Both the position numbers and the translations under genes were made by a program. Below the pieces are notes generated by a model. That model made no database searches. It was not told the origin of the DNA and saw only the letters and a program-made list of their open reading frames with translations. A DNA stretch of 64,000 nt, from the NCBI GenBank assembly GCA_002118135.1, contig BDIU01000359.1, positions 1 to 64,000 on the forward strand, read 5' to 3'. Source of the DNA: Trebouxia sp. TZW2008. Lineage: Eukaryota; Chlorophyta; Trebouxiophyceae; Trebouxiales; Trebouxiaceae. Below, piece by piece: positions 16,041 to 64,000 of this stretch (position 1 is the first letter of the stretch; each line of letters starts with the position of its first letter).

Positions 16041-19000
16041 ATGGCAAGATTGCAGCCAGAAGCAGAAGAATTGGACATTTCAGCGCCACAGTCATCACCC
16101 CTGCTATCACAAGTCAGCAGCCTGATCAGGCAACCAACTCTCCTCAAGTTCAACAGCGTTGTGCCCTTGCAACCTCAAAGCCCTGATGTCACAGCACTGC
16201 CTGGTCTCTGGAGACGCGGCTCGCTTCCATCTCAAACCTCACTCCCACAGCAAGACTTTTCTTGGACAGGACCAGAATTGCCGCAAAGGCAAGCTTGGGC
16301 ACAGCCTTCAAGGCAGCTGGGCAGTTTGGACAGTCCCAGAGAAGAGTCACAGTTCAGAAGTCAGCTGTCCAGAGAGGCGTCTGGCACATCAGTGGATCAG
16401 CGCATATTTGGAGGTATAGCAAGCATCCCCGGCCACCTTGATGTGCCCTCCTCACCTAGACCTGCAGGTCCGACATCATGTCTGAATGTGAACTTGATGT
16501 GATGGAAATGGGCCTGCGCAGCGTCGTGCCATTCATGTGCTTTGGCATCCATGCAAGCAGAGTTTGAAGATGTCGAGCACAGCAAACATGAAGACTGCTG
16601 CATTCAGGACTGAAAGGTGTTGTTGCATGTTGGGCTGCGCTACATGAAGCTATGCAAAGATGGCTGTTTCGCAGCACAACATACCACTTGTCTCTTGCAT
16701 GGCAAGTTCATGCTGATGCACCGCATGCGTGTACACCCAACACGTCAGCCTTCATGCTCTGTCCAAACTAAGGTCTGGCTTACATAGCACATAAAATTTC
16801 TGTTGTTCAGGGTCCTTGCTCCAGTCACAGTCATCAGTCAACAGACCTGCAGTAGCCAGCCCCCAGTCTCCACGCCAAACCCCCCTGCAACCCTCCGCCT
16901 CTGGCATAACCCTCCAACCCCCCCAGCCTCTGAATTCCCAACCCTCTCTCATCCCCTCTTCAAGAGACAGGGCAGCCGCGCTGAGGAAAACCCGTGTAGA
17001 CCCTGAAGAAGAAGAACGCAATCTCGGCAACCCCAGCACCAGTGCTAATGCGCGCAACAGTAAGCGTAGCAGCACACGAAGCAGCACAAGGCGGGATGGC
17101 GGTGGTGCAAGCACCACAGCTGGGGCTGACTCTGCTGGCGGTGGTGGGAAGAATCATAGCAGAGCGTATAGGACTTCAAGTGATGTGTCCAACTACCTGA
17201 GCTACGACTGGAAGGCGCTGACAGGGGTGAAGAGGCCTAACAAGCGATCGCGCAGGCTGCTCATGGTAAGACTTCTTGGGTCAAGGTCATATGCAAACTT
17301 TTCAAAGGTATTGATAATGACGGTGTTTCAAGCAGCTTGATCAGCAGTAGCCACCTGCAAAGACAAGACCGCAGTCAGCACTCATGGCATCTGATATTCA
17401 AACTGCATGTGATGTGGACGGGCCCAAATCATGTACAGCTTCACCAGAACATGCAAAGCAGATCAATCTGTAAGGTGAGAGTCTCTTATACCATAGTGAC
17501 ATTGCATTTCTGTCAGGAAGCTGTCGCATGACTGAAGCACATGGGCGCCATTTACAGGTGGCTGCCATACTGCTGATTGTCCTAGCACATGATGCTGTGC
17601 TGGCGTGGGGTGCCTTTACGCTGGCAAACAAATACTTTCCTCAGAAGGTGGCGTTGAAAGATGCTGTCTCCAGTCCCTTGAATCTTCTTCCGGGAGGAGG
17701 CAAGGTCAATATTGGTTCTAGTGAGTCAATTTACAGTCACTTAGTGGCTAACCATGACTTTGTTGCGATGCATGATTAGCAACCAGCAATACCTGTGCAG
17801 CATGCCGACCGAATATGTCTATGCTTGTTTAGGTAGCTGTAATCATGGTTGCTGTGAGCCTGAATCTGTTTGCTTCTTGCTGTTCTGTGTGCTATGAACT
17901 GCAACATTGTTGTCATGCGTGAATGCGTTGTATGCAGATGTCAGTCGTTTGCCTTGTCAAAACGCCTAGGAGTGCCACTTCTGAGATGTAAGGTTGACCT
18001 GACAATGCATCAAAATGTGTCTCTATCATCATGCAGACTCTACTTGATGCGGTCGTTGTTGTGGTGACTGCTTCTGAAGGCACTTTTGGCTGTGCTGCAG
18101 CGGGGCATGAAGCTGACCTGATGGTGTATGGCAATGTGTACGTCATGCAGCAGGGCACCACCGCTGCCAGCCGACGTCTCAGTGAACAGACAGGTACGAA
18201 AAAGAGCCACTGTCGCGTCATATTATTCTCTCGAGAGATCATAGTGATCGGTGTCAAATCCATTCAGCATTCATAACATGTCCATGCACCACTAATCCCA
18301 TATGTTTAGCCTGTTGCTGCCTATATCAAGTGACATGTGACATGTGACATGTGACATGTGACATGTGACATGTGACATGATTGCAGAATGTTTTCAATGC
18401 AGTGCATCATGATTGAACTCAAGTGCTGACTATGGTCACCTTTCCTCTTCTGCACCCTCTCTGGCATCACATAGACGAACACAAGTTGTTTCACTGATGC
18501 GAATGACACCAGCAAAGCCTGCCTGAAGGGGTTTTGAGAGTGTGCATCCATTTGTAGCCAACATCAGCTGTGCCAGCCCTTCAGTACTTGAAAGCCGGAT
18601 GTTACATCTGCAGACCATGGTGATGTGGCCCCTGATGGGCTGACTGGGCAGCCTGCTACACAGGCTAGCAACAGCACTGCAGAGTGGGATGACAGCACAA
18701 ATAGTCAGTGTGTGCACTGCCTTTTCGTGATGTAGCATGCAGGTCTGTCCAAGCAATCAAAAGCGCTGCAGAATCAGGTGACAGCACACTCATGCTATGC
18801 ACTGAACTGTGGTCATGCGTCATGCAGACCATGGTGGTGTGGGTCCTGATGGTACGACTGGGCGCAGTCTGTTGCAGTCTACTGTACAGGCAAGCAATGG
18901 CACTGCAACATGGAATGACAGCACAACTGCTGCTGGGTTGCAAGTCATGGGCGGGAATGGGCCTACAGAGCTCGTGGTGGACAGCGGCAGTCTGCAGGTA

Positions 19001-22000
19001 CATGTTCTTGCAAAGAATGCCGCTTCAGTCATAGCCTTCAGCATTGTTGAACATCATTGATGCTTGTTGCTTTCCCAGGTCCGGCATAGTGCTAGGTGTA
19101 TGTGGCACAAAGTGTCTTGTCCACATTGTATGGTGTAGCCACTGGGTGGTGTAAATGGCACAATCACTGCACCCTTTGCAAGCTCAGGCACTGTGTATGT
19201 GGCACGATGACAAGACAATGTTACTGGGCAGCACAGCACTGTACTTTCAAGATGAACAATGGCCTGTTGCACTGCAGTATGGCAGTGGGTTGAGGCTGGG
19301 CCCTGTGAACAGCACAACTACCACACGCCTGGCAAGCTTAGGCACCGGCCAGCCCTTGCTGTTGACCTACGGGCAGAAGCCAGTGCTGCTGGTTAATGAG
19401 ACCCACACAGTGCTGTACGGCGTCAATGGAAGCTCAAGCATTAGCCTGTATGCTGACTCTCAAGGCAATGGGTCAGTCAGCATTCAGGCAGCCAACACAC
19501 AGCTGCAGTCAGCACAGGTCAACTTGGGTGATTCTTCATTCAATGAGACTGTCATTGCTTTGATTGAGGCTGCAAGGGGGGTAGCCCCAGGCACCCCTCA
19601 GGGGTCAGTGAGCCCAAATTGCCCTGTGCCTACAGAGGGGCCAGGGGTTGCAAGTGCCCCTGTGGCTGCCCCTTCTGAAGGTCCTGTCGCAGCAGCCCCT
19701 GCCTCTGCCTATTCTGGAGGGCTGGTGCCAGCAGCCCCACAGCCTCAATCAACCCCTCCTGGAACCCCCTCTGCACCCCTTCAGGGTGGTGTGCCCCCAT
19801 CAACCCCTTCATCTTCTTCTAACGAACAGACTACTGTACAACCTGCTGAATTTCCCTTGCCAACCCCAGGGGGTGCTTCCCGAGTGTCTGAGTCACCACC
19901 ACCACTGTCACAGTGGCCCCCGCCACCGCTGGCTGCTGCTGCTGGTCCAGCATCTTCTGCTGAGCCACCGGCACAGGTTTTGCCGGCCACAGCTAGCCCT
20001 CAGATGCCACCACCCGAGCCTCCTGCCTCTTTGCCACAGCCGCCACAGAGCATGCCCTCCAGCAGTGGAAGCCCGCCGCCACCATCAGTGCAACCTGCAC
20101 CACCACCACCTGAAAGCCTCTCACCTCCTCAGCAGCCTGTACCACTGCCAGCTGGAAGCCAACAACCACTGTCACAGCCTGCACCGCCACCACCACCTGC
20201 AAGCCTCCCACCTCCTCAGCAGCCTGCACCACCGCCAGCTGAAAGCCAACCACCACTATCACAGCCTGCACCACCACCATCTGAAAGTAGCACACCATTG
20301 CTGCAGCCTGCACAACCATCTCTGTCACAGCCTGAACCACCGCCACCAGGAAGCCTGCCACCACTGCCAGCGTCTTCACCACTGCCACCTGACAGCACGC
20401 CACCAATGCTGCAGCCTGAGCCTGCTGCCAGCTCTCAGGCAGAAGCACCCGCCTCCTTCACCCCCTTGCCTTCTAGTGCACCCGCCTTGCCAATTCAGCC
20501 CCCTGCCCTCTCCCAAGAGCCCCTACCAGCACCCTTGATGACATCTGCTGGCCCTGATGCAGCTATGGGCCATGCTGCACTCCACCCGCCAGAGCCCCCT
20601 TTGACCCCTGCTGCATCCCAGATGCCTCCGCCAGCACCTTCAGTGCCCTTTATCAACCCTCCTGGAGCTGTGGGCCAGACTGAACCACCCCCAACAGATC
20701 CACCAGTCCCATCACCGCCACCAGCAATGCTGCCACAGTCTACATCAAGTCTGACACCAGCAGCACCTGCACCAGCTGGTCAAACACCTGCTGTGCCGTC
20801 GCAGCCACCTGTACCTTCTCTTGCTGGACCACTACCCTCATCATCTGAGACGCCTCCTGCCACAGCTGAACCACCAACGGCAGGAGCCCCACTAGCATCA
20901 CCACTGTCGCCACCATCGCCTGCTGCTGCATCAGAGCCACCACCGCTGTCGCCGCCGCCAGCACCACCACCGGCCACACCACCAGGCACAAGGGCTGTGG
21001 CCGCCCCTGCTTCAGCACCACCACCCCTGGCTGCACAGTTGCCACCATCAACATCAGCACCCGCTCCTTCATCACCCGGCCCTGCAACAGTGACACCAGT
21101 CACACCATCAGGCACAGCAGCTGCGACCACTGCTGCATCAGAGGCACCACAACCATCCGCATCAGCACTCACACCTTCAGCAGTGAGCCCTTCGATGCCA
21201 ACAGCAGTCACACCACCAGGCACAGCAACTGTGGCCGCCCCTGTTGCAACAAGTTTGCCACCAATTGAGCCTCCACCAAGCAACCCTCCCTCTTCCGTGC
21301 CTCTTCTAGCCCCTGCAGTTGGGCCCATACCTCCTCCTCCTCCCTCACCACCTTCTTTCCCTCTTTCTGCTGGCCTGCAGCCCAACCCAGCCACCTCTTC
21401 ACCTCCAGCGACCAATCCTTCATCCCCAGCAAGCCCCCCTCCCAGCCCAGTAAATCCCCCTGCCACCCCAGCAACCCCCCCTCCACCCCCAGCAACCTTC
21501 TTGGTGACCCCAACCTCAACCCCTATGCCTGTGGTTTTGGAGCCGCCACCAGCGTATCTGATGCCGCCCAGCAGCTTAGCCCCATCCCCCCTGGCTCCAC
21601 CGCTTCTGACACCACCAAGCCCTGTTTGGCCTGAGCTTCCAGCTGCAGTGCCGTTTGATGGCATCATCTCTGGGGAGCTGGCGTTTACATTCCTGGGCAA
21701 CAACAGCATAGCGGGAACAAGCACTCAGGTTTGTGCTACCTCAAGGATATATATCTAAACAACTGTAGAAGAATAAGCTGTATCAAGCCATCTCCCCTTC
21801 TTCTGTGCCTTGAGTACTTGTCCCATCACATCACAATTGTCTGTTGAGTTCATGGTACAGCTCAGATTGCACTCCCTGCATTGCAATGTCACGGAAAACA
21901 ACCAGACATCTTCAATGCTACTGTATTGTATGCAGTTGCTGATAGACAGCCCATCCCAGAACAATATCTTCTACTTGCCAGATGCAAGCGGCATTGTGTC

Positions 22001-25000
22001 AGTCATTGCTCAGTCTCCTGCCCTGCTTTCATATTTTGCATTGCAATGCCGTGGAGCACAGCAAAATGACTACAGAGTTGATGGATTGTATGCAGTTGCT
22101 GATAGATGGTCCATCCCGAAGAACATCATCTACCTGCCAGATGCAAGCGGCACTGTGGCAGTCAATGCTGAGCCTCCTTCGTACGTGGACACTGCTTGCA
22201 TAGCCTGCATTGCAATGTCATGGAGCCCAAAAAAGCACTTTCAGAGTTGATGGGTTGTATGCAGTTGCTGATAGATGGTCCATCCCAGAACAACATCATC
22301 TATCTGCCAGATGCAAGCGGCACTGTGGTTGTGAATGCCGAGCCTCCTTTGCATTTGGACCCTGATGGCACTGTGTATCTGGAGCAAGGGGCGATCAGGC
22401 AGGTTGGGCAGCTGACAGCTGGCAGCCTTGGAGCAGGCTTTGGTGAGTATTCAGCTCTGTTTATGCAAAAGTGTTGTCTGTTTGAGTCTTCTGACACTGT
22501 ACGTCTTGAGCAAAGAGGCATCAGGCTGGTTGGGCAGCTGACAGCTGGCAGCCTAGGAGCAGGCCTTCGTCAGATTTTGAGCTCTGTTCATGCAAAAGTG
22601 TTGTTCTCACGTGTTTTCTGGCAGTGTATGTCTGGAGCAAGGGGAGATCCGGCAGGTTGGGCAATTGACCGGTGCAGTCTTAAAGCAGGCTTTGGTGAGT
22701 GTTCAGCTCTGTATATGCAGAATTGTTGTCGCTGTGAGTCTTCTGGCAGTGTATGTCTGGAACAAGGGGGGTTCCAGCAGGTTGAGCAATTGACCGCTGG
22801 CAGTCCTGGACCCAGGCTTTGGTGAGAAATTCAGCTCTATCTCCTGGTTTTCTGGTCAAATGAATAAGCTCTGTGTCTGCAAAGGTGCCATTGCCTTGCA
22901 ACGCAGAAGATTGTTTCGTATAGTTCTGTCATGATAAGCAAATGCAACACTGTGCAAAGGTGTGCTTCAGCTCCTGCATGTTCATGTCACATCTGTTGCA
23001 ATGGCATCATGGGACAGATCTCACCGCAGATAGTTTTGCATATATACTGTGAACCTGTTAGACTGATGCGGCAAAAGCATCATGCTCTGACTTGCTGTTT
23101 TCAGCAACCGAGGTGCATGTGCAGATATGTTGTTAGCTCTTTCCACCGTTGGAAGCCTCCTTTGCATCATGCTGTCTGTGGCCGCTGTGAAGAGCTTGAG
23201 TTCAAGCATGTACTTCTGCCTTTCAAAGACAAGTCCAGTCAGCTGTTCTGACCCCGTTTGCAGCACTGCACCACATGCTGACCAGCTTGCGCAATCTCAC
23301 ACCTGTGCATGTTGCAGGTGACCTATCTATACCCAACAGCAGCTTGACCATTGGCTCTTTGACGGTGACTGACACAGCTACCTTCACTTCTTCAGCGCCC
23401 ATCATAGCCAATGCAGCGGTGACAGCCTAAGGGAATGTCACACTGGGAATGGGTGCCAGTCAAGCTCTCCCATTTTTTTGCCCTGAGTCTCGTTTGCTCT
23501 CGTTGCAGGTGATCTGTACATCTCCAACAGCAGCTTGACTGTTGGCCAGATGACCGTGACTGACGCAGCTACCTTCTCTTCTTGAGCGCCTATCATAGCC
23601 GATGCAGCACTGACAGCCTACAGCAATGTCACATTGAGAATGGATGCCAGTCAAGCTCTCCCAATTTTTGCCCTGAGTCTCATTTGCTCTCATTGCAGGT
23701 GATCTGTACATCCCCAACAGCAGCTTGACTGTTGGCCAGATGACCGTGACTGATGCCGCAACCTTCACTTCTTCAGCGCTTGTTACAGCAAATGCAGCCC
23801 TGACAGCCCATGGGAATGTCACCCTGGGGACAGATGCCAGTCAAGCTCTGCTAGTGCAAGCCATCTCAACATTCAATGCTCCTGTCACTGCTGCTAGTAA
23901 CATGACCGTCGGCAGCAGCAGCAGCAGCAGCAACAGCTCGCTTCTTGTGCTAGCAGACGCAGTGTTCACAGCACCAGTGAATGCCCAAGCTGATTTCACA
24001 ATTGGCAGTAGCAGCAGCAATCGCCTCAGTGTTCTGGCAGCATCAAATTTTGCAGCACCAGTCAATGCACAGAATGATGTCACGCTTGGCAGTAGTAGCA
24101 GCAACCGCCTCAGTGTTCTGGCAGCAGCAACATTGACAGCACCAGTCAAAGCACAGGATGATGTCACGCTTGGCACCGACAGCAGCAATCGCCTCAGTGT
24201 TCTGGCAGCAGCAACATTCACAGCGCCATTTCATGCGCAGGCTGATGTCACGCTTGGCACTGACAGCAACAACAGCCTCAGTATTATGTCAGCAGCAGCG
24301 TTTGCAGCGTCATTGACGGCTCAGAACAATGTTGTGCTTGGTAACAGCAGCAGCCAGACGCTCAGTGTGTTGGCAGTCTCTACTTTTGGGGCGCCATTGA
24401 CAGCACAGAACAATGTTGTGCTTGGCAACAGCAGCAGCCAAACGCTTTTGGTGCAGGCTTCATCAACGCTTACTGCACCCCTTGTGGTTCAGGCAAACGC
24501 TGTCATTGGCAACAGCAGCAGCCAAACGCTCAGTGTGCTAGCAATTGCTACCTTTGCAGCACCGTTGACAGCTCAAAGCAATGTAGTCCTTGGCAGCAGC
24601 AGCAGCCAAGCGTTGTTAGTCCAAGCGTCTTCAACATTCGCTGCTCCAGTTATTGCCAATGCTGCAGTCACAGTCAGTCCCAGCAACACTTTCAATGCGC
24701 TAGGAGACATTGTACTAGGCAGCAGCAGCAGCAACAGACTCACTGTGAATGCAAACGCCACATTTGCATCAGCAGTTACGCTCAATGGCCTGCTGACAGT
24801 GAATGGCAGCATGTTTCTAGGAGGCAGCAATGTGACAGTTGCTGCTGCCTGCGTCTTCACAGCTGCAGCGCCTATCACTGCTAACGCCTCAGCAGTGTTC
24901 AACGCTCCAGTCAGCTTCAGCCCGACAGCGCCAGTAATTGTTGGTGCTGCAGCAGTGTTCAATGCCCCTGTGAGCACCAGTCCAACAGCTCCACTCACTG

Positions 25001-28000
25001 CTCATGCCTCAGCAGTGTTCAATGCTCCTGTATCAGCTAACGCAGCAGTCACACTGAGCGCCCCAGTTGCCTTTAGTGCAGCAGCGCCTATCACTGCTAA
25101 CGCCTCAGCCGTCTTCAATGCTCCAGTCAGCTTCACTTCAACAGCACCACTGGCTGTTGGTGCTGCAGCAGTCTTCAACAGCCCAGTCAGCTTCAGCCCG
25201 ACAGCCCCTATCACTGCTAATGCCTCAGCAGTGTTCAATGCTCCAACAGCTTTCAGCTCAACAGCTCCCGCCACTTTCAATGCCACAGCGGCTTTCAACA
25301 GCGCTATTGTTTTCAGCTCCACAGCGCCCATCAGTGCCAATGGAGCAGTGACAATGACTGCCCCTCTTACTCTCAGCACAACAGCCCCAGTGACTGCTAA
25401 TGCTGCAGCAGTGTTCAATGCTCCAACAGCTTTCAGTGCAACAGCCCCAGCTATTTTCAACGCCACTGCAGCTTTCAACAGCCCTGTTGTTTTCAGCTCC
25501 ACAGCGCCCATCAGTGCCAATGGAGCAGTGATATTGAATGCCCCTCTTACTCTCAGCACAACAGCGCCAGTGACTGCTAATGCTGCATCAGTGTTTAACG
25601 CCCCCACAGCTTTCAGTGCAACAGCTCCAGCTACTTTGAATGCCACTGCAACGTTCAATGCCCCTGTCACCTTCAGCACAGCTGCTCCAGTCACAGCTAA
25701 TGCAGCAGTGACACTGACTGCCCCTCTTACTCTCAGCACAGCAGCACCGCTTACTGTTAATGCTGCAGCAGTATTCACTGCTCCAGTCACCTTCAGTTCA
25801 ATAGCTCCAGTTACTGCTAATGCAGCAGTGACACTGAATGCTCCTGTTGCATTCAGCTCAACAGCACCTCTTACTGCTAATGCTGCAGCGACATTCAGTG
25901 CTCCTGTCAGCTTCAGCACAACAGCACCCATCACTGCTAACGCAACGTTCACAGCCAACAGCAATGTTACAGTTGGTAGCAACAGCACTCAGCAGCTGTC
26001 AGTGCTAGCTACATCCAACTTTGCAGCGCCAGTGACTGCAACTGCAGCTGTTAGCATCACAGCAGGCAATGCATTGTCGGCTTTAGGCAACACAGTCATT
26101 GGCACCAATGCGGCAAACAGTTTGACAGTCAATGCAGCAACCACTGTTGCAGCGCCAGTGACTGCCAACGCAGCTGTCAGTATCACTGCAGGCAATGCGT
26201 TTTCAGCTCTGGGCAACACAGTCATTGGCACTAATGCGGCAAACAGTTTGACAGTAAATGCAGCGTCCACTGTTGCAGCGCCAGTGACTGCCAACGCAGC
26301 TGTCAGCATCACAGCAGGCAACCCTTTCTCAGCGCTAGGCAACACAGTCGTGGGCACAAATGCAGCAAATAGCCTGACAGTCAATGCAGTGTCTACATTT
26401 GCAGCAGCAGTGGCAGTCAATGGCAATGTGGTCTTGGGTTCAAGCAGTGCTCAAAGCTTGACAGTCAACGCAGCAACCTCTATCGCAGCGCCAGTGACTT
26501 CAAATGCAGCTGTCAGCATCACCTCAGGCAATACGTTTTCAGCGCTAGGCAACACAGTCGTTGGCACCAGCGCAGCAAACAGCTTGATAGTCAACGCAGC
26601 AACCACTGTTGCAGCGCCAGTGACTGCCAATGCAGCTGTCAGCATCACAGCAGGCAATCCTTTCTCAGCGCTAGGCAACACAGTCATTGGCACAAACGCA
26701 GCAAACAGTTTGACAATCAATGCAGCGACCACAGTTGCAGCGCCAGTCGTTGTTAATGCAGCTGTTACTGTCTCTCCTGGTAACTCGCTTTCAGCTCTGG
26801 GTAACACAGTCATTGGCACAAGTCCAGCAAATAGCTTGACAGTGAATGCAACGGCCACATTTGCAGCAGCAGTCACAGCTACCGGCAATGTGGTGCTGGG
26901 TTCAAGCAGTGCCCAGAGTCTGACAGTGAATGCAATGGCTACACTTGCTGCAGCATTGACAGCAAATGGGAATGTGGTCCTGGGTTCAAGCAGTGCTCAG
27001 AGCTTGGCAGTGCAGGCGGCAGCTTCGTTTGCAGCGCCAGTGGTGGCCACCTCCACTGTCAGCGTCAGTGGCCTGACAACATTGTCAGGTATCTTCACTA
27101 GCTTTTGCATCCGTATGTGTATCTGCATCTGCCCAACATTGTGATATCGGCTTTGCATGAAGTCCCTGCAAGGCTGCCTGCCTTTTGTGTCTTCCTTGTG
27201 CCTTAGTATGTTACTGCTTCTCTCACACGCCTCCTGTCAAGTGTTTGTTTGAGCCCTGTGATGTAAATCGCGAGCAAATGTACGCTTCAGCTGGTGAGTT
27301 TAGTGGATCTGAGGGTGTCTGCAACTGAGATTGTAGTGAAGCTGTCTGTGCTGTCTGTTGCGCTGCCGCTGTCGGTCACAAGCGATAATGCACAGGCAGT
27401 AATCCAGGTGATGTTATGAGCGTCTACCTGAAAAAGACACCAGTCAAGTGTTTCAAGTGTACAGACGTAGTGGCCAGATCCTTGTTTGTTTTCTGACTTT
27501 GTTGTGACACCTTTGGCATGTATGCAGGTGGAGTGGCTTTGAGCACTCCAGTCACTGTAAACGGCGTAAATCTCGCCAAAGTCGCCACCACAGCCAACTA
27601 CACAGACTTGATGGCCAGACCCAAGTTCTATGTTGGCTCTAGCAGCATCACCACAGCACAAAGCGGAGCACCGACACAGCCCATTAATATAGCCCACTGG
27701 CATGGCACAGTCTCAACAGGCAGTAACGGCGTGGCCTACATTTACCCTACAGTGGACGGCACATCAACTGGCGCTGCTATCTTCAACAGCATTCTGTCAG
27801 TCAATGTGGTGGGGTACAATAGCTCACCCAGTAATGGTAATGACGGAGTGTTTGCGACTGTTACCAGTGTTGCTGCAAATCTGAAGAGTGTGAAGCTGTT
27901 GGCGAGCACAGGCGCTACCAGTCTTGTAGCAGGGAGTGGGTTGACTTATGCACCGTCTAACACACTGCTGATCTGTACTGTGGTTGGTACATACAGCAGC

Positions 28001-46700: not shown

Positions 46701-49700
46701 GGGACTCCTTCAGCAGCCCTCTGCCTCGCCCTTTGCAGCAGCCCCTCAGCAGCGCGGCATAGTGCCAGAACTAGCTGGCAGTGGGTCAAGCTTGCAGCGT
46801 ATGGTGATGGCTTCTGATGATGTGGAACTGGAAGGGCTTCGGGTGCAGGGGCCAGGGCAGAATCAAGGGCAACAGCAGCAGATTACTGTGCTTGAGGGCC
46901 AACTGCAGGTATGTAGGTGCATGACCATCTTGATGTCAGTTGACAGTGTCACACAACAGACTAACTTGGTCTGGGCACGATGCCGTGGTTTGCTGATTAG
47001 GTTCAACGAGCCATACAAACATGTACGCAAAGCAGTGCTGTAGCATAAACCTGAAGGCATGAAGAGTGTGAGACTGTGATTCAACTGCATTTTGTCTGCG
47101 ACCTGGCACAAGCCAGGCCGTGTTTAGGTGCCTGACTTGTTCCCACAGATCTTGAACTCACACTGGCGACAGAGCAGAAGGCATGCTTACTTCATTGTGA
47201 TGTGGTCTGTTGTGCTCCTGAGTTGTAGCCTCAGCTCATGTGTATAGTGGCCATATTGGTATGGATGATTGCAGGTGGCCCTCAGCCAGCTGCAGGAGCA
47301 AGAGTCTGCTAATGCCAAGCTGCAGGCAACAGCCCAGCAAGCAAATCAGGTGTGAGATTGCTCACGTTACTGATGCAATCACAGCATGCGGTCAGAATTG
47401 TGACCCTGCATCGCGCCCGCATGTGATAGCATGCCACTGCTTCAGTAATCTTTGCATTGCTCACAAGCGCAGCTGGAAGGCTCATCCACCGTTCATCAAG
47501 CTATTTTGTCTTGAAGATTGTGATTGTTGTGTGGCCTTATCAAACAGCAGAAAATCCACCTTGTCGTACATCATCAATGCATTTCATGTGCACAAGCATG
47601 GTGCAGCACAGCTGTCATGTGCCAGCCTGACCACTGCCAGAAACTCATGCACATGACATATGGCAAGCATGTGACACACTTTGCTCTGAAAGCATTGTAT
47701 GTGGCTATGCAGGCTCAGGCAGCAAGCCAAGCAGAGCTGCAGGCAGTCCAAGCGGAGCTACAGCGTGCACGCAGCGAATGATAAATGTGTGACATCTCAT
47801 GTGTCTGAAAGCAACTTCTTACGGCTGTGCAGGCTCAAGCAGCAAGCCAAGCAGAGCTGAAGGCAGTGCAAGCTGAGCTACAGGGGGCAACTGAGATGCT
47901 GGACACCATGCAGCAGATGGCCAGCAGCAGCATGCAAGGTCAAGAGGATGCTCAGAAGCAGATGGACGCCCTGACCGCTCAACTACAAGCTGCCATTCAG
48001 GTAGCCATGATGATTAGACTCTGTGTGTCAGCCAAGTCAGATGAATTCACATGGCCCTCATCTTCATCATGTGCTGTCACAGCACATGTGAACAAGCAAT
48101 GAGTCGAATTCATGTTGTAAATTTGCATGACCTTTGCGTCATCAGGGTATTGTGAGGCATCATGCCTTTGCGTGACGCAAGTGTAGCTTAGCGGTAAGGT
48201 CAGTATCTGTAATGATCTGTCACGTCGTGTGCCACCCCACTTGCCACATCAGCTGCCATGTCAGCTGCCATGCTTGCACTAAGCTTGCTTCAGCTGCTGT
48301 CTGCCGTTAACCATGAGAGCATGACAGTTCAGTAAAGTCATTGTCCTACGACAGCATGGCTGGCTGGCAAGGCACATGACACTTAGTCAAGCAGGAAAAG
48401 TGCACATGCTCAATGTTTTATGCTGCAACACAGGAGCGCCAGAAGATGAAACAGCGTCTTGAAGCCAGTGTCAGTTCTGAGGACAACCTCCAGCAGCAGC
48501 TTGATGCCCAGCAGCGGCAGGTTGATGATGCAAATCAGCATTGTGAGGCGCTACAGAAAGCCAGACAAGAAGCAGAAGATGAGCTTCAAGAGGCCATGCA
48601 GATGGCCCAGGACAGCATGGAGTCCAGCGGGCTTGCCCTCCGCAATGCTGAAGCTCGGATCAGCGAGCTCGAGCGGCTGCTGGCCGAAGCTCGGCGGCAG
48701 CTAGCGGTCGTGCAGATTCAGCTGGCCGACACTCAAAAGGAGCTCGAAGCCGCCAAAACGCAGCTGCGGGATAGTCAGCAGGGGCTGAGCAGCTCGGAAG
48801 AAATGCTGGCGGAGATCCAGCGGCAGCTGAGCGCAGCACAGAAGCAGTTTGCTGGCAGTCAGAAAGAGCTGAGTGCCTCCCAACGCCAATGGGCAGAAGC
48901 CCAAAAGGAAGGGACCATCCTCAAAGGGCAGCTTGAGGCCTGTCAAAGGGAACTTGCCGATGGCCAAAGGGAGCTTGGGTCCACTGCAAGCAGCCTCGCT
49001 GTAAGCCAAAGGGAACTGGCCTCAAAAACCAGCCAGCTTGCCGAGAGTCAGGCAGATCTGACAAGCACCAAGCAACAGCTTTCAGAGTCCCAGGCAGAAG
49101 CAGCCAGCAGTAAGCAGCAGTTGGCAGACAAGCAGAAGGCTCTCAGCACAGCCGAAAGGCAGCTTGCTGACACAAAAAGGGAAGCCAGCAATGCTCAAGG
49201 GCAGCTTGCAGAGCACCAGCAGCAGCTGACCAGCACAAAGGGTCAGGTTGGTGACAGCCAAAGGGAGGTTGCTTCCCTCAGAAGGCAGCTTGCTGACAGT
49301 CAGAGGGAACTGACCACAGCCCAAGATCAGCTTGCCGACAGTGAAAGAGAGACCAATGCCTTGCAAAGCCATCTCAAGGAGAGTCGAGATGGCTTGAGCA
49401 CTGCCAAGGGGCAACTGGCAGACAGTCAAAGGGCAACAGGCACTCTCGAAGGGCAGCTGGCAGACCTGCAAAGGGAGCTGAGCACTGCCAAGGAGCAGCT
49501 TGACGCCAGTCAGCATGTGGCTACCACCGCTTCACAGCAGCTAGCAGATCAGCGCAGGGACCACAGCACTGCCAAAGTCCAGCTTGCAGATGCTCAGAGG
49601 GACCTCAAACACACGCAGGAGCAGCTAACAGACCGAGAGCAGAAGCTCAGCCAGTGCCAAACTCAGCTTACCCAGTCTCAGAAGGACCACAGCAGTGCCA

Positions 49701-52700
49701 AAGGGGTTCTGTCAGACAGCCAAAGGAAGCTTGCCTCAGCTGAAAGGCAGCTCTCAGAGGCTCAACAAGAGCTGAGTTCTGCCAAAAGGCACCTGGCAGA
49801 TGCTGAAGGGCATAACTCATCTGCTAAAGGGCAGCTATCTGCTGGGCAGAAGAAGCTGGCTGCCCTTCAGGGGCAGGTTTCTGAAAGGCAGCAGGAGGTG
49901 GGTGTCCTCAAAGAGCAGCTGGCGGCTAGTCAGCATGAAGCGTCCAGTATGCAGAATCAGCTGCATGACTCCAAGCAGCGCAGCGGGAGCCTCTTCAACA
50001 GCTTGAAAGAAGCAGAGGATCAGGTGAGATGTTGCTGTCGCAAGCCTGATGCAACTGGCATCATCAGTGGCTGCTCCATTGATATTGACTTGCATGTACG
50101 CTCAGAAAAGTCGCAGCCTTGCCTATGGCATGTTTTCCAGGCACTTCTGCTTGTCCTTTGCATCTCACCAATCACGTGCTCTTTATGCCTGTTGTACTCG
50201 CAAGATCTTGTAGCCACTAGGTCATAGCAATGCAATGGCGAGCTCACCTGCTTTTCTTTGCAAAGCTGCAAATCCAATGCTGCACAGGCACTAAGTATTG
50301 AACTAGTCATCAACAGGATTGCAAGCCCTATAGCAAATGGTGTCTTCAGCTTCTGCTTGCCTCATACAGGTGCGGTCGCTGCAAGAGCAGCTGAGTGCTG
50401 CTGCTACAACCAAGCAGCAGCAACAACAAGAGCTGCATGACATGCACGCACGTGCCAAGCAAGTCCAGTCAGATGGCGCTGAGAAGGACTCAGCTCTGCT
50501 GAAGCTGCAGCAGCAGCTCAAAGCTCAGGCTGATGAGATCCACAAGCTGCAGGAGCAGTTGCTAGATGTGCAGCAAGAAGCTGGCATAGCAGCTGCAGCT
50601 CTGGATGAGTCACAGCAGCATGCAGCTCAGCTGCAAGAGCAGCTCAGCTCAACCAAACAGGCTTCTGAGCTTCAGCACAAACAGGATCAACAGCTAACTC
50701 AACAGCTGCAGCTCAGCCTGACCGCAGCCAGGAATGAGCTCGCCACCTCTGAGGCCAGCTGTGAGCAGCTCAAAGCTGAGCTGAGCAAGCTCACTGCCAA
50801 GCTTCAGAGCACAGACCGCTTGCTTGCTGAGTCGCACTCAAAGTTGCACTCAAAGTCTGATGAGCTGAAGGCGAGCCTGCAAGGCAGTGAGCGACAGCTG
50901 GCGGAGTCACGCAGAGAGCTGACTACACAGAGTTCTGCCTCCAAGGCAGAACTGCAGACAACAGAGCACAAACTGGCTGACGCCCATAAGCAGCTGCAGA
51001 AGCAGACTACTGCTTCCCAGGCAGAACTGCAGTCACTAGAAGACAAGCTGGTGAAGTCTCAAGGCCAGCTTGCTGATCAGGTTGCTGCCCTGAACGCAGA
51101 CTTGGTGACCACTAAACAGAAGTTGACAGACACAGAGCAGCAGCTAGCTTCCCAGAAGCTGGTGTCACAGTGTGCACAGCAGCAAGCAGCTGACTTGAAT
51201 GCTCAGCTGTCTGCAGCTCAGAAGAAGCACTCAGCTTCTGAGTCTGCTCTGCACGCTCAGCTGTCTGATGCTCAGCAGCACCTCACCACAGCTGAGCAGG
51301 GTCTTGCTGCTAGTGAGGCCACTGCTGCCACTGCCAAGCAGGAGGTGGCCAAGCTGGCAGCCGAAGTACACCAACTTCACCAGCAGCTTGCAAGTACTGT
51401 GAAAGAAGAGGAGCAGCAAAGAGGCATGGTCTCAGAGCTGCAGAAGCAGTTGAGTGCTGAACAAGACAGGCTCAAGGATGCATTGCAGTCCATCCAGCAT
51501 CAGAAGAGCTTGCTGCAGCAAAGTCAGCGTGAAGCGTTGTCACATCAGGAGAGTGTTACAGGTGACAGACCTGAAGTCATTTTGAATTGCCGTGCTGTGG
51601 GAGGCCTTGCTGTACATGCTGGCATCTTTGCTGCAACAGGAACCTGTTGCATCAGGAGAACCTTAAAGGTGACAGACCTGCAGTCATTCTAGTCTGTTGT
51701 GCTATGGGAGGCCTTGCTATACATGCTGGCATCTTTGCAGCAATGGGAACCTGTCATATCAGGAGAATGATGCCGTTGACAGGGCTACATGCACTCTGGT
51801 GTGTCATGTTCCCGGGTGCCTTTGCAGTACATGCTTGCATTTCTGCAGCAGCAGGAACTTGTCACATCAGGAGAAATTTATGGGTGAGACACCTGCATTC
51901 ATTTTGGTCTGTCGTGCTATGGAAGGCCAAAAGGAAAAAGCAGCAAGAAACGAAAAGAAGAAGGCCAAGAAGACAGAGCTACATGCACTTTGGTGTGTCA
52001 TGTCTAGGGGTGTCTTTGCATTACATGCTTGCATCTCTGCAGCAGCAAATATCTGACAGACGGCTGCATCAGAATCGCATCTCATCTGATCAGCTGGACT
52101 CTGATGCAGCTGTCTGTCAGTTGCTCTGATGCTGTCCAGAATGACAAAAGCATTTATGGCAAGTATTCGCTGCCCAGAAAGGCTGCATGTCAAATGCAGC
52201 AAACTCTAGTCTTGAGCACCACCAAGCTGCTTGTGTACATGGAACAGGCAACTCATGCCTGCATCAGACCCATCTGGCATGCAATGTGATAGACTGCAAG
52301 TATGCTTGCTGAAAGCAACTCCTGCCTGTGAGCTCCCTCCACTCTGTTCCCATTCCCTGTTTCCCTGACCCCTGCAGCGCATCACAAACCCGTGCGTGCA
52401 ATGCTTGATGCCAGCATGTGCTGAGGCCATCAATTCGTGATGCACGAGACAATTGAGCTATGCATCCCAGAAGTTTGTGTGCAGTATGTACCACATATTG
52501 ATGATATGTACGATAGCTTCTCTCTGTAAGGACACTCAATGTAAGCACATTCTTGATGTAAGGACAGCGCAATTGGGAACCGACCTTTGAAGCCAGTGGT
52601 GCCTCTGAGTGAAGATCATTCGATGCAAGGACAACTTTCCATTTGACCAAAGCAGTCGTTACAATGAGAAGTCATTTGTACTGAATCAAATGTGATGTGT

Positions 52701-55700
52701 AATGCAGTTGCAGAGCGGCAAACTGCACGGCTGCAGAGAACCAACAAGGAACAGCAGCAAGATATCTCAGACCTGACAGCAGAGTTGCAGCAGGCCAGGT
52801 CTCAACTGGCCAGTGCACAGCAGGCGCGTGACACAGAATGGTCTGATGCTCAGCAGCAACATGAAGCAGGCAGAGTAGAACTGGCAGCCACTAAGAAAGC
52901 GCTGCTGGCTGCACAGCATGAAGAGAGTCAGATCAGGCTCAACTGGAAAGCTGCAGAGCGCAAGTTGGAGGCGGAAAAGGATGAGTTACAGGTCAGATTC
53001 CAAAAATGATCCTAATAAATAAGCAAAATCGTAATATCATCCTGATGCATGGCAGATCACATGTCCATGCACTGCTAGGTGTGTGTGTGGCTATGTGCTA
53101 GGTGTGTGTGGCCCAAAGCATTTTCCACCAGGTCCGATAGCATCATCAGATCGCCTCTCCTCAAACCTCATACACTAGCACTGCATCTGACAATCAATGG
53201 TGTCCAGAGTCCTGCACTGCAACTAACAGTGCAATCGTATGCAAATGTCTGCATGTCAATCAGCTGCTGTTCAGTTCTGGCTGGCAAGAGTCAAGCTTGC
53301 CTGTGCCAGTGAAAGCCACAGAGCCTTTGTTGACCATGCTTCACATATAGTTTCCTGATTACTGAATACGTGTTTTGTGATGCAGACGGTGGCAAGAGAT
53401 CTGGCTGCCGCTCAAGACAGGCTGACAGCAGCTGGCAGTGAGCTCAAGCAGATAGCCTCACAAGCTGAGCAAGACTCACGACAGCTGAAGCAGGCTCGTG
53501 CACTGATAGCTCAATTGCAAGCAGACGACTGCGCAAATGCAGACCACAAAGCACAGCTTCAGCTAGCTCAGAAGGAGTTGACTCAGGCTCAGCGTGACTT
53601 ACAGAAGGCACAGCATGAGCTGAGTTCAGTGCAAGCACAGCTGAGTGCCAGTCAGAAAGCAGAGAAGGTCGCACAGGTTTGTTAGGCAGGCTTGATGTTG
53701 TACTGCAGCAAAGCTCTCACATGATGATCATGCATGATTCAGTCGCAGCACATGTTTGCCAAGCAAATGGCGCTGGTCTCATCAGTCTTGAAACTAGCGT
53801 GTACAAATCTGCATTGCTAAGGGCAAGCTTTGAGTGTTTAAGCTCGCTGTGTTTCTTCACAAGCTCAATGCCAGTCAGAAGGTACAGAAGGTAGCAGAGG
53901 TTTGTTACGCAGGCTTGCTACCATGATGTGCAACTTGTCTCATGTGATCATTATGCACTGTTCATTGCAGCACATGTTCTGCCAGGCAGATAGCGCCAAT
54001 TTCATCAGCCATGAAATCAGCGTGTAAAGCTTCATATTGCTAGGCGCATGCTTTTAGAACATGTGCTACGTGTGCTTTTGCCGACTTGACCTGTCATGTC
54101 GGCAATTTCATGTTATGATGTGCTGGGTGCTGAGCAGTCAATGGCCTGCTGATCTGCTTGATTGCAGTATGTGTGGTTTCCATTCAAGCAATACTGTGAA
54201 CAGACGATTGCTAAATCACCAGGTGCGTCCTGGTGTGCCTTCGCTGTGGGAACACTGCAATCATTGAAACTTTGCAGTTGCACAGCCAACTTTCACGCAG
54301 ACAAGCACAATACATGTTTATCCCGCAGGAGCACTCACAGAGTCAGTCTCGGCATGGGGCACCATGCTACTTATGCGTTGTGTTTGCAGCATCAGCAAGG
54401 ACAAGCATGGCACTCATGCATGGTGTTTGGACATTTGCAGAGGCAATTTCTGCCAGAGCAAACATGATACTTGATCACTGCCATTGATGTAGGAGCAGCA
54501 AGCGGCCCTGCAGCAAGAACTGCAAGATGATTTGGAAGCCGCAAAGGGCAAGGCTGCAGCGCTGGCAGCAACTGTTGAGGAATGTGATGAGCTGAAGGAG
54601 CGGCTGTCAGCTGCCAGATCAGCTGCTGCAGCAGCCAAGCAAGCAGCTCAGACAGAAGCAATCCAGCTGCAGGCGCAGGTGTGCTGTTTCTGCTGCAAGT
54701 ATTGATTGAGGCAGCCTGATATCTTGAGACTCTGACCCTTGCCGACAAGTGGGCGCTGCAGATGCTGGCAGCACTGATGCTGAGCATATGCATCGCATAA
54801 ATCACATGGCTGTATTCTGCCCCACAGGTATGCTGGCAGTAGCTTTGCGGGCTATCATCTGTGATGTTGCAAGTTTCCTGTCCTTTGCCCTGGGCCTCTG
54901 GCTTTTCCTGTATTAGATGCTGTAATCACAGATTTTTTTTCCTGTTGTAGGCAAGAGCTGCAAGAAGTGCTGCAGACAAGGCTGAAGCCTCACTAGAGAC
55001 CAACCAAGCAGAGGTGCTAACCCTCAAGCACCATCTGGCCGCAAGCAATGATGCAACAGCTTCATGGAAGCAGAAAGCAGAAGCTGCACAGCGTCAGATC
55101 ACAGCCCTTCAGCATGAGCTGGACTCTGAATGTGCTGAGCATCATCAGCTGCGGGCTGACCACCAGGCAGCAGTGGCCACCGCCAGCGATCATCACCAAG
55201 CAGCCGTGTCCAAGCTGCGAATTGAAGCACGCACGCTGCGTTCAAATTTGAAGCAAGCGCAAGAAGCTCAGGCTGCCTCAGCAGCTGCCCACGCTGAAGC
55301 AGAGCAACGGGAGCAGCAGCTGCAGTTGAAGCTGGACTCAGCCAATCAGCAGGCAGCATCTCACAAGGCAAAGGTGGATTTAGCACAGACCCACAGCTGC
55401 GGTTTGGACAGCCAAATCAGCTCACTGCAGCAGCAGCTTGAGGGTGTACAAGCATCAGATGAAGTGCAGAAGTCTGCCTTAGCAGGCACACAACAGGAGG
55501 TCAGCTCTCTACAAAGGCAGCTTCATGCTGCTAAGACGGCCGCCCAGGCTGCCATAGCTGTGGCCGAGGAGGCGCAGCAGCAGGCTGCAGCTCTGAGAGG
55601 GGAGCTTGACAGTGCCACTGATCTCAGCTCATCTCCCCTCAAAGTCAAGGCAGACGCTGCTGAGCATCACGTACGCAGCCTGCAGGGTCAACTGCGCAGC

Positions 55701-58700
55701 GCTCAGCAGCAGGTGTCAACCTTGGAGGCAGAGAATGCTGAACTGCAGCAGCAGTTTGATGCACAGAAAAGCGCTAGCAAGAGTCCTGACCCTGCCTCTC
55801 TGCAAAGGCAGCTTCAAGTTGCAAGGGCAAACGCCAGGGAGGCTCAGGAGTTTGCTAGCAGCTTGCAGATGGAGCTAGACGCTGCCCAGGAGACAAGTGC
55901 GAAGCAAAAAACAAAAGCAGAGGCAGCACAGCGGCAGCTGCGTAGCATGCAGATCCAGCTGCAATCAAGAAAGGAGCACACAGCAGCTCTTGAAGCACAG
56001 CTGGACCAGATCGAAAGCCAGACTGATGGTGATTCAGCTCTTAGACTAGCCCCTGGGCGGCATGCTGGGCACGCTGTGCTTCAAACGGCCAGGTCATTGA
56101 CATCTCAGGCTCAGCACTCAACCAGCGAGTTGCGCTCTGAGCTGGACTCAGCCCAGCGGCTGTGCTCAACATACAAGGCCCGTGCAGATGCAGCGCAGAA
56201 GAATGCTCGCAGCCTGCAGATTCAACTCGCCACAGCTCAGCAGCAGCTGGCCACTGCTGAGGACTCTGTTGATCAGCACCAACAGAGCTTGCGCAAGGCA
56301 GAGCTGCAGCTGCAACGTCTGCAATGGCACACAGAGGGGGCTGATGACAAGTGTCCAGATCCTGCAGCTCATGACAAGCAGGTATGCAGCTGACTTTACG
56401 TGTAAAAGCATGTCTGCTTTTGCTCCAGGAAGATCTGCCTTTTCCAGCTGCCATACTATCCTTCAATTGCATCCCTGCTTGTCGATCTTGCCTGTACAAT
56501 TCATCAACTATCTTTTTCCATCTCATCAATGCACTTGTATGCCTTTTAGGGATTGCGTTATACCTCTCACTCAGACATCCATCTACTAGTACCAGCTGTG
56601 ATGTGCTGCAACATCATGCACAGCACATGATGCCTTCACAATTTTGTGTGTATCCTGCAGACTCACCTTGCATCGTCCAGAGGCTAAGCTAGCCGTTCAT
56701 GCAGCACCTGGCTGCTCTGATATTCAGTGTGTGACTGTCTTCCTGCAGATCCAGAACACATCATCAGAGGCCAAGCTGACCCATGCTGAGCGGCAGCTGT
56801 CAGCGCTCAGGACACAGCTAGCAGTCGCCTTGGAGTCTGCTGACGCAGCTTCAGAGGCAGCAGACAGGATTCCTGCCCTCGAGAGTCAGCTCAGGAGGTC
56901 AGACGCTAGACTGGCAGCCACCAACTCACAGCTGTCATCTCTACAGCACTGCCTAGCCCATGCCAATGGCCAGCTGGCAGAAAGTCAGCAGGCTGCAATC
57001 AGCTTGCAGTCATCGTTGGATGAGGCTTTAGATGAGGCGTTGGTGGCACAGGAAATGGCGCAGAACCCGTGTTTGGCTCTGCCAGCTACAGCACAGCAGG
57101 GTGGAGTGAAAAGGAAGCAGGCTTGTGACTCAGCTGAGCAGGCTGAGTGGAGAAGGTGATGCGCACCTGATGCTCAGTTGGTCGTATGCCATTTGTTGGC
57201 TACTACGCATCAAGGGCCTCCCTGCATCAATATACCAATGTTGATGGCAAGGATGTAAGAGTGTCTGCTTAGTCAGATTCCAGCATCTTAGTTTGTCAAG
57301 TTTGAACAACCATGAAAGTAGCCGTACAGCTTGACGGGTAACGGTGTCTCTGGCACTGTATGAGTCACAGCATCTGCAACTAGACTTTGAAGAGTTGCCA
57401 AAGAATCTCTTGTGAACAGCATGCAGTGTCTGATTCCTTTTGCTGTTGTACAGGCAGTTGCGTGAGGTCAAAGCTTCACAGCCCAGCCACAGCAAGGGCA
57501 GAACTGGCATTCCAGCACAGAGTGGTGGTGAGACTTTGCGCGTCGCCATCCTCAAGCAATTGAACGCAAAGCAGAAGCGCATAGAAGCTTTGGAGCAAGG
57601 TGCTAGAGCTGCTCAAGCTCAGCATAAGACAGACCTTGCTGAGCAGCATCAGCTTGTATGGCAGCTGCAGCAGCAAGTGGCAGATCTTCAAAAGCAAGAA
57701 GCAGCTGATCCAACTGGCAGAAGCAGCTCAGGCAAAGCATTAGCCTGGCAAGAGAGGTCTTTGCAGCTGCAGGATACAGCTCAGCTGTCCACCAGCCCAT
57801 TTCAAGAGCTGCTGTTTGCTTCTCGGCTCCAGCTGGCTGAGCAGGCGGAGCATATCGTCAGGCTTCAGCAGGACGCTCTAGCAGCGGACGAGCAGCTGGA
57901 GAAGCTGAACAATCTCTTACAGGCGCACGAGGCGCACACGCAGCGTCTCGAAGTCCAGCTTGAGAGCAAAGCCGATGCCGCCAAATCTCGTTTCGCCAAG
58001 GTCAGCCAGCATCTGGAGGCCGAACGGCGGACCGTCAAGGCGTTGAGAACGGAGCTCCGATCATTGTCGGCGGCGACCGGATCGCATGTCAGCCGGCTTG
58101 CGACAGAGCTGGAGGCCAAGCAAGGCCTGCTTAGGGGCTTGCAGTCCACTGTCTTCACCGCCAAAGCAGATGCGGAATCCTCAAGGAGCCAGGCTGAGGC
58201 CGCCAGCACAGCCTTGGCCTGTCTAAGGGATGCTGGCTTGGACCTTGAGCGAGTCTCAGCACAGCTGAATAGGGAGCGCCAGGTACAAAGCAGTCTCTAG
58301 CATCTTGCATTTGGTTTGCTAGCACATGTCAGCATTGAATGATGCATGACACATCACACAGGCGGATGCAGCTGCAGTCAATGTCCCGAGCTCAGACAAG
58401 AGCTGCTTTCCCGAAGCAGAATTTGCTCATGTATCTGACGTGCTTGACGTCCTCTGCATCATGTCATCAGCTATTTTCAGATGCTGTTGATCAAGCTGCA
58501 TCTTGCCAGGTATCTCTCATGTCAAGAATGACATGCTTTCTGTTTGCAAGAAAAGCATATGTAAGTATATGAGCATCAGCTGCAGCTTGCCTCTCAAGCA
58601 ATCAAGTCCACTGCATCAAGTTGACATCTTTTACAGTGGTTTCTTGACGTAACGTCTGTGTTTTTACCCAACACATGTGTCACTAGATTGAGTTGTCACA

Positions 58701-60903: not shown

Positions 60904-61567
60904 CCGCGTCTTTCGTGACCAGGCTTGACTGTCTTTGACAAGTGTTGCACCAGAATTTCCCGATCTTGATGCTGTTTGAGATCTGTTTTTGCTGATGATA
61001 GTCCAGTATGATTACTGTTTCTGTGATTGTGTCCACAAGTGGATTATACATTCAAGACACTTACACCCCTAATTTGGTTCTCGTTCATGTTTTAGCTATG
61101 CATGATATACAGCAAACATTGCTTGTGACGCCCATCACTACAAAGCCTCTGTTGAGGGTGCTGCTACCCTACAAGTTGGTGTCTATTCCTCAATTTGCAG
61201 GTCCTGTGGCTGAGATTCTGCCACGTACTGATGGTACTGAGGTGACTTTGGCTGCATCTGATACACAGCTTGTTCTGCAGGGTGGCAGTATATGTTGCAT
61301 GGCTTGCTGATAGCATTTGGACTAGCATCTCCCACCTGTATTGCATGTGAAAAGTCAGCTTCAGAGCTATGGCATGCTCGGCTGCACAATGCTACATTGC
61401 TGCTTGCAGAAACCTTTTGACTTTGTGTCAAGATGTGAGTAGGAGTGCAATGGCTGTGCAGACCCTCCAGCGCCTTGGCAAAAGGGCTTGCACCTTTTCT
61501 GTCTATGACACTGACTGTAACAGGCAGACTGGATTTGCCAGAGTTTTCGACCGACTGTGAGGATTAC
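60904..61567. other. 3' flanks of two convergent genes; possible last exon of the minus-strand gene
   Basis: Convergent 3' ends. On the minus strand, 61299-61183 can be read as a final exon (QMQPKSPQYHQYVAESQPQD, stop at 61183) after a CCCTGCAG acceptor, but its phase does not match the preceding donor without an unusual site. The plus-strand frame 61008-61310 has no recognised domain. Confidence 0.35.
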
Positions 61568-62179: not shown

Positions 62180-62221
62180 CCTGAGCGGTTCTGTAGAGTC
62201 GGCAGCTGGACAATTTTTCAA

Positions 62222-63213: not shown

Positions 63214-64000
63214 TCACTTGTGGCTGCCCATCATATTCTTAGCCCAGGCAATCATTTCCTCCTTTTTCTTGGGGTCTCTTGCCATCTGCTTCTTGACATT
63301 TTCCTCTGGCACGTCAAGGCCCTTCTGCACAGCTGGCCGCTCCTCAATGCGCTGTAGCCATGCCTTCAAGTTTGGCAGATCATCAATCTCAACACCTGTT
63401 TCAAACAGCCTCAAAGGAATGTCTTGGAGTCAAGCGTATATGCAGGCTAGCATGTTCACACAGCCTCAAGGAATGTCTCAGAGTCATGCGTATGTGCAGG
63501 CTCGCATGATCACACAACCTCAAGGAACGTCTCAGAGTCATGCGTATATGCAGCTTCACGAGCTCCCTGATGTAATAGCTGCATGATGAGAATACTCTGC
63601 TGCCTTGACTGGTGGCTAAGCAGCATGCCTTATGTTATCCATGACATGCACTCTGCAAGCCAGGACGCAACACAAGGCTGACTCTCAAACGCATGCTGCC
63701 AATTTTGTTTTTCAATGCAAAACGCAACATGACAGCTCTTACCTTCTCAGTACCATCAGGGGATTGAGCATGAACATGCAGCTGGCATACCTGTTACCTC
63801 ACATTTGCGCGGGCACAGGTGTCACTTAATTAATGGTCCAATCAAGTCATTTGGTGCTCAATGATCTAACAGGTACTTGACCTAGCCACACAGCGAGGGC
63901 ACTCAATCACATTGCTACGACGCATACAGTGAACTGCGGCTGTCATTAGTGCTGTTGCAGAGGCTCTTGACCCTCTGCCTTCTCCTTACCAGCCCATAGA
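63214..64000 (-). CDS. Glutathione S-transferase, C-terminal end (gene continues past the window)
   Basis: The last exon is 63409-63214 on the minus strand (acceptor TTTGAG|G, phase 2). It reads LFETGVEIDDLPNLKAWLQR, then IEERPAVQKGLDVPEE and ends KKKEEMIAWAKNMMGSHK. The pattern DDLPNLKAWLQRIEERPAVQKGL is typical of the C-terminal helical domain of Ure2-like or beta/nu-type glutathione S-transferases (family knowledge), in which this helix packs near the hydrophobic substrate site. A possible upstream exon end lies at about 63740 (SPDGTEK|GTAAGA), and another donor near 63990. The N-terminal thioredoxin fold with the catalytic residue is outside the window or in small exons I could not place. 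Substrate unknown. Confidence 0.7.
63400..63560 (-). repeat. Three tandem copies (about 53 bp) of the GST last-exon acceptor
   Basis: CAGCCTCAAAGGAATGTCTTGGAGTCAAGCGTATATGCAGG and two near copies (about 63460 and 63513 onward) repeat the acceptor plus first bases of the last exon and its upstream intron. Only the copy adjoining 63409 leads into the conserved exon. Confidence 0.88.

Follow-up and report, generated by a model that had tools for sequence, protein, structure and literature searches.

Tandem duplications at exon edges and their decay in the introns of the green alga Trebouxia sp. TZW2008

The first 64,000 nucleotides of contig BDIU01000359.1 from the green alga Trebouxia sp. TZW2008 (assembly GCA_002118135.1), referred to here as the window, belong to a 68.5-Mb genome assembled in 527 contigs. 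The single rbcL match in this genome indicates a green plant or alga: its identity to the proteins listed is at most 94% (to an ENA entry), and its best PDB match is chain 8q04_A, a green algal Rubisco. A first-pass annotation of this stretch had pointed to tandem arrays at 13 coordinates, in which an acceptor or a donor splice site and part of the adjoining exon are repeated within the neighbouring intron. Analysis with Tandem Repeats Finder (TRF), self-BLAST and alignment of the copies places all 13 coordinates within arrays. At 12 of them the repeated unit comprises a splice site together with exon sequence, as had been claimed, with just about seven exon bases included at 33533; the array at 63400 repeats intron sequence only. 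The annotation had spread these arrays over at least five genes. Our models give four to five, and the gene for the alpha subunit of the AP-2 complex is the only one identified by homology. Its product matches Adaptin_N (1.4e-91) and Alpha_adaptinC2 (1.3e-7), with Alpha_adaptin_C at 6.4e-5, under the cut-off.

Exon-edge arrays in the window

A search for local direct repeats with copies 40–500 bp apart, referred to below as the corrected search, finds 22 arrays in the window; its settings miss some gappy arrays, such as that at 18609. The individual features are as follows, a slash marking the exon–intron boundary.

18609–18926, plus strand: acceptor-edge pair (TGCAG/ACCATGG), two copies 214 bp apart, below the threshold of the corrected search
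21877–22838, plus strand: acceptor-edge array (TATGCAG/TTGCTGATAG), units of about 160–169 bp, working exon 22265–22442
23312–23849, plus strand: acceptor-edge array (TTGCAG/GTGACC), 2.8 copies of 190 bp
31235–42995, minus strand: AP-2 complex alpha subunit gene, 27 predicted exons, holding six of the arrays of the first-pass annotation
31802–32337, minus strand: acceptor-edge array (CTGCAG/GCCCACCCC), 3.4 copies of 145 bp, in the 3' part of the AP-2 alpha gene
32993–33450, minus strand: donor-edge copy (GTGCAG/GTTTGCC), about 303 bp downstream of AP-2 alpha exon 33389–33559
33528–34219, minus strand: donor array with about seven exon bases (GGCACAG/GT), a 247-bp duplication (92%) over 84- and 149-bp repeats
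34690–34975, minus strand: duplicated 69-bp exon (34710–34778 and 34854–34922), copies 144 bp apart, in the AP-2 alpha hinge
35431–35724, minus strand: acceptor-edge array, two copies of 145 bp, at AP-2 alpha exon 35413–35514
36934–37200, minus strand: donor-edge array (GAG/GTCAGT intact in all three copies), 2.9 copies of 92 bp, at AP-2 alpha exon 37134–37376
47670–47889, plus strand: acceptor-edge array (TGCAG/GCTCAAGC), two copies of 118 bp, at exon 47833–48102
51538–52047, plus strand: donor-edge array, 107- and 214-bp periods, at exon 50370–51561, absent from the first-pass annotation
53639–54057, plus strand: donor-edge array (CACAG/GTTTGTTA), two copies of 223 bp, at exon 53386–53676
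63400–63553, minus strand: intron-only array, 2.8 copies of 54 bp, adjoining exon 63214–63395, which is not repeated
4970–5137, no strand assigned: two copies of 83 bp, 100% identical, touching no junction, inside a weakly predicted intron; also absent from the first-pass annotation

Unit lengths differ from array to array, and those measured here are close to the values reported earlier. The copies are mostly about 60–93% identical and their decay is graded, which agrees with the earlier description of decayed copies and, usually, one working exon per array. The duplication at 4970–5137 is the youngest event seen. Both copies of the 18609–18926 array are predicted as exons, at 18614–18703 and 18828–18997. 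The coordinates 21936 and 22351 fall in a single array (21877–22838) according to the first self-BLAST and in two adjoining arrays according to the corrected search, while the arrays at 33060, 33533 and 34822 are neighbouring duplications within one gene. Each copy of the 69-bp exon pair at 34710–34922 in the AP-2 alpha hinge has 23 codons in frame with an acceptor and a donor, making this pair a plausible candidate for an exon gain.

Spread through the genome and geometry of the copies

Because the window was chosen for its edge arrays, the fair sample is a set of 23 further pieces (223 kb) picked by contig number and position, blind to content. Arrays are present in 21 of these, and the window is therefore not special. 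In all, the corrected search yields 85 arrays in the pieces, a density of 3.80 per 10 kb occupying 12.6% of the sequence, which bears out the high rate of short tandem duplication that had been suggested for this lineage. As a chance control, the sampled pieces were simulated five times with a Markov-4 model; no array match was obtained, and chance is thereby excluded. The 107 arrays from pieces and window together have a median period of 145 bp (quartiles 98 and 209 bp), and multiples of three are not over-represented (35, 38 and 34 arrays in the three classes). Splice junctions are touched by 55 of them; 19 lie in introns only, 21 are intergenic, 11 are confined to exons and one is at a gene end. 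The arrays do not fit the class of coding tandem repeats, since so few are confined to exons and the periods show no multiple-of-three bias. Seven arrays occur at kinase and HSP70 loci, three at predicted junctions and a further one (L033) at a junction indicated by HSP70 homology.

The gene models used throughout are predictions of a small gene finder whose training set consisted of exons with homology support and of long open frames. Predicted exons have a median length of 143 bp and introns of 375 bp, with donor AG/GTRAG and acceptor TGCAG/G. Independently of the array search, 220 well-scored exons were aligned directly to the introns on either side of them (score at least 22); the 19–27.3 kb portion of the window was left out of both this comparison and the coding training. 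A copy was found on 43 of 394 exon sides, as against none in 788 unrelated introns of the same length, and 37 of the 220 exons, about one in six, retain a recognisable copy of their own edge in a flanking intron. Upstream copies begin at the 5' edge of the exon in 20 of 24 cases and downstream copies finish at its 3' edge in 16 of 19, to within 12 bp. Such geometry is required by tandem duplication across a junction and is not required by retro-insertion or random copying. It is also seen in 70 of 108 edge matches from a first, incomplete set of 68 arrays (see below). The exon part of the unit ranges from about 20 to more than 100 bp. Introns that hold a copy are of greater length (575 versus 375 bp), though longer introns also offer more room for finding copies.

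Protein homology, which needs no gene finder, gives a view of the same geometry. In an HSP70 gene on contig C150, an exon covering profile positions 131–205 is preceded by two partial copies (131–168 and 132–167), both with an acceptor at their start. In the nearer copy 105 of 115 bases of the exon part and 53 of 59 bases of the intron part are identical; in the farther copy this holds for 98 of 116 bases of the exon part. A second exon of this gene (251–330) has an upstream copy (243–294) with two stops, and in another HSP70 gene (C165) two exons are followed by donor-edge copies. Overall, 67 HSP70 matches fall into 11 contig-strand groups, three with overlapping matches and two with clear edge copies. 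The most striking case is a VTC-family gene (PF09359; positions 350–3200 of piece L011), in which six of 13 predicted exons have edge copies and, judged by eye, an intron may hold two to five copies, from fresh to barely recognisable. The kinesin and adaptin match lists were also judged by eye. In the VTC gene some copy pairs have a ratio of nonsynonymous to synonymous substitution rates (dN/dS) near 0.1, unlike dead copies.

Placement, decay and alternative explanations

The first array set, with 48 of its 68 arrays at junctions and five in introns only, had suggested strong targeting of junctions. That conclusion has been withdrawn, the self-BLAST on which it was based being flawed: short-period and near-identical arrays, 4970–5137 among them, were lost because gapped extension rejoined the main diagonal. 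Searching without gaps brought in 25 further arrays, of which eight are intron-only and six lie at junctions. The figures now superseded were 38 of 43 at junctions in the pieces, a circular-shift expectation of 37.3 ± 3.4 and null shares of 56–58%. The pair statistics (identities, dN/dS and splice dinucleotides) and the cross-locus test rest on this first set.

With the corrected arrays, circular shifts predict 48.0 ± 4.5 at junctions, compared with the 55 observed (147 of 2000 shifts reach 55), and 23.6 ± 3.8 in introns only, compared with 19. On these numbers the proposal that splice-junction sequence favours duplication is not upheld. Exon-only and gene-end arrays are omitted from the first-set null shares, the TRF placement and the forward simulation. 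Of the remaining genic cases, 42 of 60 lie at junctions when the pieces alone are counted, and 55 of 74 with the window added. A forward simulation, in which arrays were placed at random, left to decay and then scored with the corrected search and the gene finder used on the real sequence, gives a junction share of 57% (62 of 108; P 0.03) when introns decay twice as fast as the spare exon part, and of 73% (73 of 100; P 0.75) when they decay three times as fast. We conclude that the excess at junctions is modest at most, and that the constrained exon half, by staying recognisable for longer, can account for it. Piece L010, a contig end whose GC content is 42% and whose many short repeats encode a TPIPLYP-like peptide and differ from the other arrays, was left out of the forward simulation, as it was from the first-set null shares, the TRF placement and the comparison of exons with flanking introns.

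Comparison of working and spare copies reveals how they age. On the exon side the two are 84–86% identical over the first 40 bp, whereas on the intron side identity falls from 73% to 60%. The intron side is about 68% identical, against about 61% for unrelated sequence aligned in the same way, and is thus often nearly lost. In acceptor-edge pairs the mismatch frequencies at codon positions 1, 2 and 3 are 0.15, 0.17 and 0.23. The 39 pairs that are at least 80% identical (965 codons, three stops) have a pooled dN/dS of 0.37, and the seven remaining pairs (269 codons, one stop) have one of 0.50. By our own estimate, a neutral spare copy paired with a constrained working copy gives a dN/dS of about 0.4–0.55. 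The pooled values lie near this range, and most spare copies therefore look dead. One alignment has stops in eight of its 53 spare exon parts, and stops are present in other alignments as well. The 38 edge matches of other geometry were left out of the identities, dN/dS and dinucleotide counts, and the 23–27.2 kb portion of the window out of the edge matches and their identities; exons scoring below 5 are omitted from the dinucleotide count, and exons scoring below 8 or sharing less than 30 bp from dN/dS.

The arrays, their genome-wide spread, their geometry and their decay are directly observed, and are probably to be accounted for by frequent short tandem duplication that is roughly blind to splice sites, with copies at junctions being tolerated and remaining recognisable longest. 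According to this explanation, short duplications, half of the detected periods being about 100–210 bp, would arise often both in and between genes, roughly regardless of splice sites, perhaps through ordinary break repair or slippage. A duplication straddling an exon border would be tolerated by splicing because just one copy, that joined to the remainder of the exon, would be bounded by an acceptor as well as a donor; this working copy would be the last in an acceptor-edge array and the first in a donor-edge array. The spare copies would stay intronic and be removed by splicing, leaving the product unchanged, and since they leave with the intron each event would lengthen it by one unit. Base changes would then erode the spares, and several copies of differing age would build up as duplication recurred. 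Duplications internal to exons would presumably be lost unless they kept the frame. The constrained exon half would keep junction arrays detectable for longer than intron-only arrays, and this persistence may produce the modest excess at junctions.

Several observations, on placement and on constraint, weigh against this explanation. Uniform placement with equal decay gives a junction share of 49% (81 of 166), well short of the observed 42 of 60 (P 0.001), and the decay factor of about two to three comes from a rough fit to the identities. The first-pass annotation had named a random-placement simulation with the same junction overlap as grounds for rejecting its idea; random placement comes close to this once faster intron decay is allowed (57–73%) and falls short of it when uniform. 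TRF arrays lie at junctions in 21 of 33 cases against 10.1 ± 2.5 in size-matched placement, a null that has no term for persistence or for the gene finder (one of 22 TRF junction arrays, with a period of 462, was omitted from this count). Exon-only arrays number 11 against 6.1 ± 2.2 expected by placement, seven of them in coding-repeat genes of the window. The gene models are predicted from DNA without RNA, and a single eukaryotic genome was compared. Among 77 matches to CCT/Cpn60, with small overlaps in four of 12 contig-strand groups, no clear edge copy was found by profiles that miss short copies. The shares obtained under uniform placement and with TRF would be expected if splice junctions or exons were hot spots of tandem duplication, for example through transcription- or splicing-coupled DNA breaks, the excess then being mutational. 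We regard this as improbable. The circular shifts leave a small difference, the simulated shares reach the observed value when introns decay faster, and young arrays show no excess (three of eight TRF arrays with at least 88% matches are at junctions against 1.7 expected, and the young arrays of the corrected search comprise one at a junction, two in introns and two intergenic). Acceptor and donor edges are about equally represented (24 and 19), and the exon part is too variable in length for the breakpoint to lie at a set position beside the splice site. Equally improbable is the broader idea that borders are preferred duplication sites, with splicing or transcription marking the DNA and introns growing mainly by copying their own exon edges; if true, such a preference would be a self-reinforcing source of intron length and spare splice sites.

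The observations on constraint bear on whether spare copies are instead functional alternative exon edges, kept by selection for alternative splicing. Three stops in 965 spare codons are fewer than we expected of dead copies. Some pairs, several of them in the VTC gene, appear constrained in both copies (dN/dS 0.0–0.25). The AG or GT is kept in 40 of 53 spares, where 34.3 would be expected under neutrality, and the AP-2 alpha exon duplicate is in frame. Such a role is nonetheless improbable: the dinucleotide retention is not clearly above neutral, stops interrupt some of the spare exon parts, the periods have no bias to multiples of three and, by eye, most donor-edge spares seem to have no acceptor and most acceptor-edge spares no donor. 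Assembly error is an unlikely source of the arrays. Some two-copy cases match in exons and not in introns, as two haplotypes would, yet it is very hard to credit that an overlap between contig ends, or the merging of two diverged haplotypes or strains in one consensus, made arrays in which single introns contain three or more copies of graded age, and the haplotype-chimera reading was dropped on that ground. In several arrays, moreover, the intron halves are clearly alike, as in the nearer C150 HSP70 copy; CCT/Cpn60 falls into about the number of groups expected of single-copy genes and there is one rbcL; and near-identical copies are rare (4970–5137 and a stretch of L010). An introner or a transposable element with splice sites would likewise leave copies that bear splice sites and sit in introns. 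Its involvement is extremely improbable, given units that vary by array in length and sequence and derive from the adjoining exon, and the finding that only five of the 68 first-set arrays resemble sequence at another sampled locus, in line with the original remark that the units lack the fixed ends of a transposon. No Rfam family scored above threshold in the window.

Relation to known systems and further observations

The following comparisons draw on titles, abstract openings and passages of open-licence papers. Tandem genomic duplication is an accepted route of intron gain (PMC3443670). The process in that model, a short duplication within a gene that duplicates splice signals, is the same as in the alga, but there it starts within an exon segment and one unit is spliced out, whereas the algal units cross an existing junction, and no newly created intron was identified in this one genome. 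In the potato RdRp gene a tandem duplication over an intron–exon boundary created a new intron (PMC4974935). The duplication again spans a boundary, but as one event in one gene; in the alga the duplications are genome-wide, affect both kinds of edge, are repeated and mostly decayed, and mainly lengthen existing introns. Internal gene duplication has been described as common in eukaryotes (Gao and Lynch 2009, as cited in PMC3443670 and PMC4974935), and compared with that work, known to us through these citations, the algal evidence consists of decayed partial exon copies in introns. Fill-in by Pol alpha-primase at DNA breaks makes small tandem duplications (<100 bp) in mammalian cells (PMC8355091); by analogy with that demonstration, it is a candidate for a homology-independent source of the algal duplications. 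The mechanism is thus known, and what is new is its scale and its effect on intron length: none of the titles, abstract openings and passages surveyed describes a genome whose introns consist to a visible extent of exon-edge copies.

Introns in the core-Reinhardtinia green algae are long, with medians of 198–343 bp, and the source passages leave the driver open and name no duplication mechanism (PMC8226300); the predicted median in the present alga is about 375 bp. The duplications described here offer a concrete and datable mechanism of intron growth that bears on the causes of intron length among green algae with compact genomes, the working copy supplying a reference against which each duplication can be dated. 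Stages from duplication through spare splice sites to decay, and perhaps to exon gain, are visible in one genome. Gene prediction in this lineage will have to contend with numerous spare splice sites and pseudo-exons.

Some other features of the sequence may be mentioned. In the window, the long exon 23902–27144 contains coding repeats of 84, 126 and 180 bp (TANAAVxFNAPV-like) and perhaps encodes a cell-surface repeat protein; it is preceded by a proline-rich exon, 19278–21728, with strong GC skew. The very long gene at 48413–58300 appears coiled-coil-like (Q/A/L-rich), with diverged internal coding repeats. A dispersed repeat at 4065–4239, 7177–7338 and 52509–52681, about 65–71% identical and present in both orientations, is possibly an old mobile element, and an imperfect palindrome of 147 bp, 73% self-complementary, lies at 52016–52162. 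Among the sampled pieces, positions 600–7300 of L019 (GC 47.6%) carry dense arrays with periods of 128–485 bp and no gene model, and may be either intergenic or an uncalled gene.

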